Assembly: GCA_021323395.1 (NCBI GenBank)
Contig: JAJONL010000009.1
Location: 2,391-42,114 of the forward strand
Direction of reading: 5' to 3'
Source of the DNA: Nitrospira sp.
Lineage (GTDB): Bacteria; Nitrospirota; Nitrospiria; Nitrospirales; Nitrospiraceae
Length of the DNA: 39,724 bases
Shown here: one piece after another, positions 2,917-25,224 of the stretch
Layout of the letters: each line of letters starts with the position of its first letter
Numbering within the stretch: the stretch's first letter is position 1
Made by a program: the position numbers and the translations under genes
Notes under the pieces: model-generated
Told to the model about the DNA's origin: nothing
Database searches by the model: none
Seen by the model: the letters and a program-made list of their open reading frames with translations, nothing else

Positions 2917-3796
2917 TGCGCCGCGTCTGGAAATGCTCCTGCCCTGTAGACCACATATTTCGGGGGTCAACCAACGGAGAGAAAGCAGCCTTTAGTTGTG
3001 CACTCCGAATCAGGTCGACCTTGAAACAAAACGAGTCCAACATCTATCTCTCATGGGGCCAGCCACTGCGGTGGATTTAATGCAAAGTGGACAAGACGTC
3101 GAGACCGTCGGCAGCACCTGCAATGAGGATGATGAGGGGACATTGAAGCGCATACCCAGCTCTTCGACGAAAGCTCGGGGGCGTTGTCCGCAGTCTTCCC
3201 TCGGTCCTTTTTAGTGCTTACACACCCTTTAATAATTCAGGCTTCGATGCCACCCAGATGGAAGCACTTTGACGCCGATCATACTAAAATTGTGCTCCCC
3301 CCTCGCCCGTGATCCAAATCTCTTCTCCATTCCGGTGACTCTCCGGATAGTCGTAGGAATACCGTCGCCACGATGGGCGAGTTCTGCCTTAGCACTGTTT
3401 CATCTTGCAGATATCGATCCCGCTCTCAACGAAAGTGTAGTGCCGGCCGTGGTTCATTCCAAAAAACATGACTGTGAAGCCGACTACGACAATCCATTAT
3501 CGACACAAGATCCTCGTGCTGTACAGGTTCGACCGAGATCTTTGTCCTCAAACAATTCAAAGCCGTTCTGCCGATGAACTGCAATATACAGGGCCGAGAC
3601 CTTCGAGAGTGCATCGCTAGGGACTGAGGCTTGACTCGTCGGAACTCAGAGCCACCGAGGACTCCAACGACAGCATATCCGAGGCGAACACCCAAAAGTC
3701 GTGGGCGCGCCACAGTCTCCCTTCGCAAAAATACTTCCGGAATCTGGAAGATAAACATTCCCTCCTCCAGTCGCTCGCGGTACAACGATAGTGAGA
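2917..3796. other. Region without a recognisable gene
   Basis: Both strands carry only short frames with odd composition and no family resemblance. None has a convincing ribosome-binding site or pairs with a neighbour. I read it as non-coding or decayed DNA. No repeat, tRNA or clear terminator stands out. Confidence 0.5.
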
Positions 3797-3808
3797 ATTG
3801 ATATCAAT
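3797..3808. promoter_or_regulatory. Perfect palindrome ATTGATATCAAT, possible operator
   Basis: A 12-bp perfect dyad sits in an AT-rich island (gagaattgatatcaatatta) about 50 bp before the first small ORF of the cysteine-rich cluster. The island resembles GATAAT-type arrays bound by Fur-family regulators, which would suit genes for metal-binding miniproteins. That link is inference; a 12-bp palindrome in AT-rich DNA can also occur by chance. Confidence 0.4.
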
Positions 3809-3857
3809 ATTAACGTCCACCCTGTTCCGATTCTTCAAACACGAAGGTACTGAACCA

Positions 3858-4001
3858 ATGTTTACGTCCCTCGCTCGAAGAAAATCCCACACTGATTATG
3901 CCCATCAGTCGGGATGGACAGCGTGGACGGACCCGCTGGATGGAGACGGCAATGCTTCATCGGCCGTCTCCGTCCAACGGCTTCCTAACGAGGCAATATG
4001 A
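3858..4001 (+). CDS. Small hypothetical protein, 47 residues
   Basis: ATG at 3858 has GAAGG about 10 bases upstream. The frame ends in TGA at 3999-4001, where ATGA overlaps a possible upstream start (3998) of the next gene. The product is hydrophilic, rich in Ser, Asp and Trp, without a known domain. The four-base overlap and common orientation suggest it is co-translated with the zinc-ribbon gene, but coding potential is weak. Confidence 0.35.
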   Translation: MFTSLARRKSHTDYAHQSGWTAWTDPLDGDGNASSAVSVQRLPNEAI

Positions 4002-4018
4002 GCAGAAGGAGTAAGTTT

Positions 4019-4219
4019 ATGAGCTGTTTTCGATGTGGAGGGTATCTGGCTATCGAGCCTTCGATCGATTTCTACAATCCCGAGGGGCAATGGAGATGTA
4101 TCAATTGTGGGGCGCATCTCCCATTTCATTCATCGACTTCAAAAGCATTGTCACGGAAACCGTCACGCACCACTTTCAAACTATCCACTGACGAAATTTC
4201 AACCCCAAGCCCAGCTTAG
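4019..4219 (+). CDS. Small zinc-ribbon protein, 66 residues
   Basis: The product begins MSCFRCGG and carries a second CINCGA pair at about residues 27-32, giving a CxxC-x(~20)-CxxC zinc ribbon. The tail is Ser/Thr/Lys-rich and probably disordered. I chose ATG 4019 over the in-frame ATG at 3998 because AAGGAG (4008-4013) is ideally spaced before 4019. Similar cysteine-rich miniproteins are, as I remember, common in Nitrospira, but none has an assigned function that I know. It is the first of three small same-strand genes that probably form one transcript. Confidence 0.7.
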   Translation: MSCFRCGGYLAIEPSIDFYNPEGQWRCINCGAHLPFHSSTSKALSRKPSRTTFKLSTDEISTPSPA

Positions 4220-4319
4220 CTTCCCACCAGGGAGGCGTTGTAGACAGCGTTATTGGACAAAACATTTCTCTCAAACCCAGCCGTTCAAACCAAGGATGCT
4301 CGCGAAGGAAGTGGAGACT

Positions 4320-4538
4320 ATGCACTCTCTAAAACAAGACAACGGGCGCCCCACACTCAATACATGCACGTGCGGGAAGGTGCATTTCACCTACGGCATG
4401 ATAACGTTCCATTTTGAAGCCCATGAATTCACCTTGTTCGCGGGCGCGGTGGCGCGATTGTTCGCGCAGTATCAGCAAATATATGGTGCCGAAGCGTCCC
4501 ACTCGACATCATCAGTCCACAATGGGAGTTGCCACTAA
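4320..4538 (+). CDS. Small hypothetical protein with an N-terminal CxC motif, 72 residues
   Basis: The product starts MHSLKQDN and has CTCGKVHFTYG near residues 16-26, then a phenylalanine-rich segment (ITFHFEAHEF) and a helix ending in LFAQYQQIYG. ATG 4320 is preceded by GAAGGAAG at good distance; an upstream in-frame ATG at 4293 lacks this. The two Cys and several His could bind a metal, but no full site is visible. It ends 14 bases before the next zinc-ribbon gene. No function can be given. Confidence 0.62.
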   Translation: MHSLKQDNGRPTLNTCTCGKVHFTYGMITFHFEAHEFTLFAGAVARLFAQYQQIYGAEASHSTSSVHNGSCH

Positions 4539-4552
4539 TCAAGGAGCCTGTC

Positions 4553-4957
4553 ATGAAAGCGTATGAATGTCCAAGTTGTAGGAGCCTAAGTCTCATTCCC
4601 ACAGGAGGTTTTCTATGCTGTGGACAGTGCGGTTATGCCATTACGGCCGTCGCCCTCGCTGCAGAGCAACGCTTCCGGCAAGGGACATTGAAAAACCACA
4701 AGTCACGACAGCCGACGTGGCGCAACATGCTCAGGCATTACCGAAAAGCTTATGAAGCAAGTGGAGTGAGTAATCTGTCTGCCAGGCGTATCGCAAACGT
4801 GTCGGCTTATAATCCTCACGGCTCTCGCCACAGGGGTAAGTCAAGAGGGAAGCCACACGTATATATCCAAACAGATGCGATCTTTATCGAATCAGATACA
4901 CTGTCGCCTATCAGACGAAGCCGCTATCTGGACGGTTTATATTCATTCAACACATGA
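4553..4957 (+). CDS. Zinc-ribbon protein with basic tail, 134 residues
   Basis: The start at 4553 follows AAGGAG with a five-base spacer, better than the in-frame ATG at 4529. The N-terminus holds CPSC at about residues 5-8 and CCGQC at about 23-27, a two-knuckle zinc ribbon with an aliphatic helix after it. The remaining ~100 residues are basic and low in hydrophobics, with no domain I recognise, and could contact nucleic acid. It is the last clear member of the cysteine-rich run. Its family and function are unknown to me. Confidence 0.75.
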   Translation: MKAYECPSCRSLSLIPTGGFLCCGQCGYAITAVALAAEQRFRQGTLKNHKSRQPTWRNMLRHYRKAYEASGVSNLSARRIANVSAYNPHGSRHRGKSRGKPHVYIQTDAIFIESDTLSPIRRSRYLDGLYSFNT

Positions 4958-6016: not shown

Positions 6017-6568
6017 CTATTCGGTCCGATGCTTGTGACCAACCGATTGCGGATGCCCCACCTCACCATTCGGCGCCCTGGCTCCATTCGGCCACAGATG
6101 GAAGATGATGCCATCTGTCTTAGCCGCAACGGCAGCCACTTCCTTCGCCTGGGCCTCCGGCATATCGAGGATTTGAACCCGTCCAGTGGCAATCTCAACT
6201 TCATGATCATGGTAGTACTTGTTCCACGCTTCCAATGGAACATGGGCGCGAGAAACTGATTTCGCCACAAAATATTCGATGTCCGTCAGTAAGGCGTTGG
6301 CATCCGTCGATTCGAATAACAGACATTGCAATATTTCCGGCGAAATCGATTTGCAGTAGTGATGGTACGGACCATGCACCGAACCATCCTCGAACTTATG
6401 CGGAGCCATGACGTGAATCGTATACCCCTGCGCCGGTGTCGCCACGCTCTTTGCGGCAGCGGCCGGAGCCGCGGTCGAGGAAGGTTTCACTCCGTGAGAG
6501 GTGTCAGCACAACCAGCGACTATCAGCGCAGCCGCACAGAATCCGATGACCCCGATCGCACTTCGCAT
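6017..6568 (-). CDS. DUF1264 family lipoprotein
   Basis: The N-terminus is a lipoprotein signal with lipobox VAGC near residues 17-20, then an Ala/Pro-rich linker. The rest, from about residue 50, is a DUF1264 domain: IHVMAPHKFEDG, HHYCK, LLFES and the histidine-rich end VGHKHRTE. Plant members are called oil-body-associated proteins; no bacterial biochemistry is known to me. The many conserved His residues and a Cys could bind a metal. ATG 6568 has an AAGGAGG ribosome site. It is a paralogue of the gene just upstream, and from about residue 48 to the end the two products are close to identical in plan, which indicates local duplication. Confidence 0.92.
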   Translation of the reverse strand: MRSAIGVIGFCAAALIVAGCADTSHGVKPSSTAAPAAAAKSVATPAQGYTIHVMAPHKFEDGSVHGPYHHYCKSISPEILQCLLFESTDANALLTDIEYFVAKSVSRAHVPLEAWNKYYHDHEVEIATGRVQILDMPEAQAKEVAAVAAKTDGIIFHLWPNGARAPNGEVGHPQSVGHKHRTE

Positions 6569-6613
6569 AGTGGCCTCCTTAAAATTGAGCTACGGCATTC
6601 ATGCATGACAACG

Positions 6614-7120
6614 TTATTCCGTCCGATGCTTGTGGCCGACCGACTGCGGATGCCCCACCGACCCATCAGGCGCTTTGGCGTCCTTCGGCCACAGATGAAA
6701 TATGATGCCGTCTGTCTTGGCTGCAGCCGCCGCCACTTCCTTGGCCTGCGCTTCCGGCATGTCGAGGACCTGCACACGCCCGGTAGCAATTTCCACTTCG
6801 TGATCGTGATAGAACTTGTTCCAGACATCCACAGGCACGGCGGATCGAGACAGAGGCTTGGCTACGAAATACTCGATGTCGGTCAAGATTGCGTTGGGAT
6901 TAGTCGATTCAAACAACAGGCACTGGAGGACTTCCGGTTTGATGGCTTTGCAGTAGTGATGAAACGGGCCTGCCACCGACCCATCTTCCATCTTGTGAGG
7001 CGCCATGACATGGATATCAAATCCGTCGGCCGGACCGGGCTTCATATCCGCGGCATATGCAGGGACGCCGATGCCAAAGGCGAACGCAGTTGCACCGAGC
7101 ACACAAAGATTTTTGAGCAT
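6614..7120 (-). CDS. DUF1264 family secreted protein
   Basis: The product starts MLKNLCVLG and has a cleavable signal peptide ending near AYAA. The DUF1264 domain follows with IHVMAPHKMEDG, HHYCK, CLLFES, HDHEVEIATGRV, IIFHLWP and VGHKHRTE. ATG 7120 was chosen because AGGAGGCGG precedes it; the frame runs upstream to 7210 but that part has no signal and no family match. It is the first of two DUF1264 genes, 45 bp apart, with a cytochrome c gene third. It differs from its paralogue by being soluble rather than lipid-anchored. Confidence 0.93.
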   Translation of the reverse strand: MLKNLCVLGATAFAFGIGVPAYAADMKPGPADGFDIHVMAPHKMEDGSVAGPFHHYCKAIKPEVLQCLLFESTNPNAILTDIEYFVAKPLSRSAVPVDVWNKFYHDHEVEIATGRVQVLDMPEAQAKEVAAAAAKTDGIIFHLWPKDAKAPDGSVGHPQSVGHKHRTE

Positions 7121-24915: not shown

Positions 24916-25188
24916 GACACACCCCTCGCGCGAACAGATTGACCTCTTCTCACCCCTTGTCTCACCCCTTCGGCGCCATCGCCTGCCGCACACAGCGTGG
25001 GGATAGTCCAGCGTCATTGGGTCCTCGCAGGCCATCCATTAGGGCCGAGGGCCCCGACATTGTTCACCGTGAATACGCTCTGAAGTTGACGAGGAAACCG
25101 GTAGCGGTCTACACTTCGTCTCAGGATAGACTTGTCCACCGGTGATGGAGTTCACCGAGAACCGCCGACGGTGACACCCCTTCGGCTG

Positions 25189-25224
25189 ATAACTCCTACC
25201 AGCGCGTTACGCGGTAGGAGTTAT
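25189..25224 (+). promoter_or_regulatory. Hairpin that encloses the ribosome-binding site of the ABC gene
   Basis: ATAACTCCTACC (25189-25200) and GGTAGGAGTTAT (25213-25224) form a perfect 12-bp stem. The right arm contains TAGGAG, which sits six bases before GTG 25227. When folded, the stem would hide the ribosome site. It could alternatively be the terminator of the gene upstream, but the tail TTGTGG is a poor T-tract. Confidence 0.68.

Follow-up and report, generated by a model that had tools for sequence, protein, structure and literature searches.

The Fur regulon, the small RNAs under Fur control and the riboswitches that precede metal-linked genes are the closest described systems to the locus considered here. 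RyhB, PrrF, NrrF and FsrA are small RNAs controlled by Fur, and Nitrospira, the genus to which the locus belongs, rank among the major nitrite oxidisers and have enzymes rich in iron. Two further Fur-controlled small RNAs are HrrF (PMC4144887) and BrrF (PMC7377471). A literature search on Fur, small RNAs or iron-responsive RNA in Nitrospira found nothing. The locus lies in a 39.7-kb stretch of Nitrospira DNA, the whole of which was analyzed and is referred to as the window, and consists of a cassette of three small cysteine-rich proteins behind a predicted Fur-type promoter box and a structured RNA, with the following features.

3746 to 3761 (+): motif M16, GGAAGATAAACATTCC, a 16-base imperfect palindrome at about the -35 position
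3787 to 3805 (+): Fur-like box, GATAGTGAGAATTGATATC, over the -10 region and taking in most of the palindrome at 3797 to 3808
3797 to 3808: palindrome, ATTGATATCAAT
3805 to 4008 (+): structured leader RNA (model R1), about 200 nt, five helices, 54 pairs
3814 to 3828 with 3915 to 3929 (+): helix P1 of model R1
3831 to 3841 with 3872 to 3881 (+): helix P2 of model R1
3845 to 3855 with 3860 to 3871 (+): helix P3 of model R1
3887 to 3895 with 3905 to 3912 (+): helix P4 of model R1
3933 to 3945 with 3968 to 3980 (+): helix P5 of model R1
4019 to 4219 (+): ribbon 1, 66 aa with two CxxC pairs (CFRCGGYLAIEPSIDFYNPEGQWRCINCG), genus-wide and with a conserved start
4320 to 4538 (+): CxC protein, 72 aa, CxCG..HF.YG.ITLHFE..EF..FA, with Cys-His at the C-terminus
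4553 to 4957 (+): ribbon 2, 134 aa, a conserved 51-aa ribbon and an extension peculiar to the window genome
5078 to 5155 (+): membrane peptide, MLWAIAIMGTYVAGIYLIRLVWWQE, 25 aa, next to the cassette on its downstream side and preceded by a good ribosome site

The stretch at 3805 to 4008, whose DNA is strongly conserved across the genus, corresponds to a conserved structured RNA of no catalogued Rfam family. An alignment of 25 orthologues contained 36 invariant columns, with the C-rich loop of P4 (CCC) and an ACCCG segment invariant, while 22 of the 54 pairs were changed on both sides and the covariation score was reached by none of 500 shuffles. When the pairing partner was slid by one to three columns, the share of paired cells fell from 90% to 33-42%, a figure that leans toward the structure as the structure was partly drawn from those same sequences; the changes on both sides are the stronger evidence. 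The window RNA alone folds identically by energy (z -4.66). A covariance model placed the RNA at the cassette locus in 25 of 29 genus genomes (22 of the 24 good ones), with one extra, degenerate copy in the window's own genome, and in a sample of 296 phylum genomes gave only weak matches outside the genus. Comparison with Rfam 15 revealed nothing above chance at the leader of the window or of eight other orthologous loci.

Within this stretch, the earlier note on this DNA had read a 47-codon frame (3858 to 4001, +) ahead of the ribbons. The frame is open with a start in only one of 25 orthologues, that of the window, the others having internal stop codons, no start codon or indels that break the frame; it is thus non-genic, a part of the structured RNA misread as a gene. 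A start for ribbon 1 at 3998 was likewise rejected, as it is not conserved, unlike the start at 4019 (M-x-C in relatives). The existence of the frame in the window genome could be taken to mean that the conserved stretch is coding sequence or a decaying mobile element and its RNA structure spurious, but its closure in the remaining orthologues, together with the covariation and the collapse of pairing on sliding, renders this hardly credible.

The open frames of ribbon 1, the CxC protein and ribbon 2 were confirmed at the reported positions, each with a plausible ribosome site, and a search of 61 related genomes recovered relatives of each in 27 to 45 of them. Their order (ribbon 1, CxC, ribbon 2), which the earlier note had proposed to look for in other Nitrospira, is genus-wide and so is not unique to the window genome. 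Both ribbons carry two CxxC pairs at zinc-ribbon spacing and are predicted to bind metal, although searches of Pfam and NCBIfam returned sub-threshold matches only. Ribbon 2 is approximately 50-60 aa in relatives versus 134 aa in the window, where a stop codon has apparently been lost. An AhpC/TSA-family (peroxiredoxin-like) gene separates ribbon 1 from the CxC gene in L062, L063, L064, L066, L071 and L074; in the window 100 bases remain at this place, from which we infer that the gene has been lost from the window genome. The CxC protein is found genus-wide and also in other Nitrospirota genera, and a narrow CxC alignment scanned against the genome collection retrieved Nitrospira and Nitrospiraceae records only. 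A weak likeness to DUF6686 (PF20391) was detected for 10 of 16 members (best E 2e-4), but the window protein scored 14.1 bits, below the Pfam cut-off of 23.9, and is much shorter than the 117-position profile. The structure model of the CxC protein from a single sequence was poor, while an alignment-based one was better and comprised three predicted strands plus a long helix, with a core pLDDT >90 and no match in the PDB better than E 1. Downstream, the membrane peptide is 72-96% identical in 25 orthologous loci. Many relatives carry another small membrane-type frame 3' of ribbon 2, for example ...LPVLLSLLVSLLMVLMALLRASFR (L071:2078 region and L092:1417 region, in coordinates with the cassette on the + strand), and convergent with the cassette the window encodes two adjacent DUF1264-type proteins (6017 to 7114, -), one confirmed by Pfam and the other by its likeness to the first.

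At the promoter, the earlier note had drawn attention to a perfect palindrome of Fur-like appearance. The palindrome is present, but it is not conserved, its 10-base core (TTGATATCAA) occurring in only three of the fetched loci; the 12-base palindrome was accordingly ruled out as a conserved operator and is merely the edge of the Fur-like box. The Fur-like character did hold up: GATAGTGAGAATTGATATC shares 14 of 19 positions with the E. coli Fur consensus and is the top-scoring 19-mer of the window, 13 of 19 being reached by only three other 19-mers, one of which overlaps it. At least 13 of 19 positions are kept in 19 of 25 orthologous leaders, and the -10 region under the box is TATAAT-like in relatives. 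The box was lost in one clade (L068, L078, L085 and L091) and scores at most 11 of 19 in L065 and L092. The clade without the box retains M16 and the RNA, which counts against an iron-operon account. From this pattern the cassette promoter box appears to be Fur-type, with Fur as its predicted ligand. A genome search for further sites near metal genes, an avenue that the earlier note had raised, gave a positive result: with up to three mismatches, GATARTGAGAATTGATATC occurs at three sites in the whole 3.5-Mb genome, namely at the cassette locus, upstream of the decayed second copy of the RNA, and directly before a TonB-receptor gene. Both remote sites fall in a single siderophore-type cluster (L134:2020-8712; G000:C25), which contains an ECF sigma factor, the TonB receptor, a weak match to the 67-nt element described below, and SbnA-like, SbnB-like and MFS exporter genes, the latter three named by sequence reading.

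Motif M16 (consensus GGAARRTRARCATTCC) was found in 25 of 29 genus genomes, compared with zero for a reversed-pattern control, and most sites precede a cassette of the window type. Each of the nine other M16 sites examined has a divergent Fur-family gene on one side and iron-uptake genes on the other; TonB-receptor/FecR loci are present at all nine and FecI also at eight. A further M16 site, in L082, is upstream of a paralogous cassette. The divergent Fur-family gene is a candidate for a dedicated regulator that binds M16. In L162 to L170, each M16 site at iron-uptake loci is adjoined by such a gene.

The paralogous cassettes themselves adjoin FecI, FecR, TonB receptors, PepSY proteins, CbiX-like proteins, bacterioferritin (Bfr) or Bfd. 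Pfam was used to check the assignments of Bfr, Bfd, Fur, the ECF sigma factor and AhpC/TSA, and several other neighbour names come from sequence reading. A TonB-receptor plug domain lies within 7 kb of 9 of 16 paralogous cassettes against 0.8 expected (P ~1e-8, a rough value because loci from related genomes were counted as independent). At the genus-type locus itself, iron-uptake genes were not found as close neighbours, although many relatives have a Fur-family gene about 5 kb upstream; it is the operators and the paralogous cassettes, and not the neighbours of the genus-type locus, that supply the link to iron. The earlier suggestion of a metal-linked set of undescribed role can therefore be narrowed: a Fur-type box, M16 at iron-uptake loci, and paralogous cassettes within iron-uptake loci together indicate that the metal concerned is most likely iron. 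A link to zinc or to general metal stress, with Zur-like control, would suit the zinc-ribbon spacing of two of the three proteins and the ZIP transporter near some paralogous cassettes, but we consider it very unlikely, since most of the associated genes serve iron uptake or storage (TonB receptor, FecI/FecR, PepSY, Bfr, Bfd) and the box fits the Fur pattern.

In G033, a sister genus, a Fur-like box before the cassette is followed not by the 200-nt RNA but by a different element of 67 nt, in which GGCCAGAG and then a small hairpin precede GAGCCCA, and GAGCCCA is followed by a terminator hairpin and its T-run.

L090:6531-6597: 67-nt element, with copies in L079, L088, L089, L094, L097, L099, L100 and L172 to L221

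This element also covaries, with a score reached by none of 500 shuffles, and had no match in Rfam up to E 0.5. It occurs in 81 of 246 Nitrospirota genomes at one to six copies each, often with a Fur-like box upstream, and 25 of the 30 best copies examined have an iron-related gene within 1.5 kb. That sister genera carry a different structured element both at the cassette site and ahead of other iron genes speaks for an iron-operon account. The 67-nt element may itself function as an attenuator or a riboswitch.

Taken together, we think it fairly probable, on comparative grounds, that the locus is an operon for iron starvation headed by a structured leader that acts in cis. Under iron-replete conditions, iron-loaded Fur would occupy the box over the -10 region and block transcription, and when iron is short Fur would leave the box and allow transcription, the binding and the direction of control being predicted from established knowledge of Fur. 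A second regulator would probably act at M16 near the -35 position. The transcript would begin with the approximately 200-nt folded RNA, followed by the genes for ribbon 1, a peroxiredoxin-like protein in many relatives, the CxC protein and ribbon 2, and these cysteine-rich proteins may help to handle iron or protect against iron stress. Most likely the RNA would adjust, in cis, expression of the genes behind it. Action in cis is ranked first because the RNA is always directly 5' of the cassette, no intrinsic terminator was seen between it and ribbon 1 when orthologous sequences were read for a hairpin and T-run, and every locus examined retains one or more of the downstream genes. Against this account, G024 has lost the RNA and retained ribbon 2.

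The RNA does not serve ribbon 1 alone, as it is intact in L083, L092, L093 and L068, where ribbon 1 is a pseudogene, and at L064, where ribbon 1 was not found. Such decay would also fit a trans-acting, Fur-controlled small RNA comparable to RyhB, FsrA or PrrF, processed from the cassette transcript or sharing its promoter, and repressing iron-using mRNAs, perhaps through the invariant CCC loop. The Fur-like box at the promoter, the invariant P4 loop and ACCCG segment, the RNA-bearing genomes in which the CxC gene was not found, and the real terminator of the sister-genus RNA at the same place are all in keeping with this proposal. However, the terminator expected of a free-standing transcript was not seen 3' of P5 in the genus, the constant position before the cassette and the persistence of a downstream gene point to action in cis, and the structure is more elaborate than is usual for such RNAs, leaving a trans-acting RNA possible but unlikely. 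As a special case of the cis-acting leader, the RNA could be a riboswitch of a new class with an iron-tied ligand (Fe2+, haem, a siderophore or an Fe-S-related compound). The multi-helix junction, its invariant columns and strong covariation, its 5' leader position before iron-linked genes and the lack of an Rfam match would agree with such a class, but it is confined to one genus in the phylum sample, is essentially a single-copy element in each genome, which most riboswitches are not, and revealed no switching helix, so that we regard this special case as rather doubtful.

A more far-reaching idea, which we put forward as a long shot, is that the ribbon and CxC proteins would be RNA-binding regulators of the 200-nt and 67-nt leaders similar to Com of phage Mu, forming a protein-RNA iron feedback circuit in Nitrospirota. 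Some paralogous cassettes have nearby a small ribbon of a third kind ('COM'), which weakly matches the Mu-like Com zinc ribbon (PF10122; 18.1 bits, E 0.002) but falls below the 22.9 cut-off, and no counterpart was seen at the window cassette.

For the iron-starvation operon that we favour, the resemblance to the Fur regulon lies in the Fur-type box over the -10 region and in the paralogous cassettes inside FecIR/TonB-receptor loci; the operon differs in that it encodes small cysteine-rich proteins behind a structured RNA leader, and in that Fur binding is predicted. With the Fur-controlled small RNAs the window RNA shares a Fur-type promoter and a C-rich loop, whereas it lies directly before protein genes, has no terminator and is more structured; a sequence relation to them was not found in Rfam. 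Like the NiCo, yybP-ykoY and fluoride riboswitches, it forms a structured 5' leader before metal-linked genes, but it is restricted to one genus, has no Rfam match, and ligand binding by it is hypothetical. A fluoride riboswitch occurs elsewhere in the window (25132 to 25205; Rfam RF01734, 55.3 bits). The locus thus yields two structured RNAs absent from Rfam, namely a 200-nt leader specific to the genus and a 67-nt terminator element found across the phylum, as well as a second operator-like motif (M16), while three families of small cysteine-rich proteins can now be annotated as iron-linked, and iron control in nitrite oxidisers becomes directly testable. While the parts are of known kinds (a Fur operon, a structured leader and zinc ribbons), their combination and both RNA elements appear to be new.
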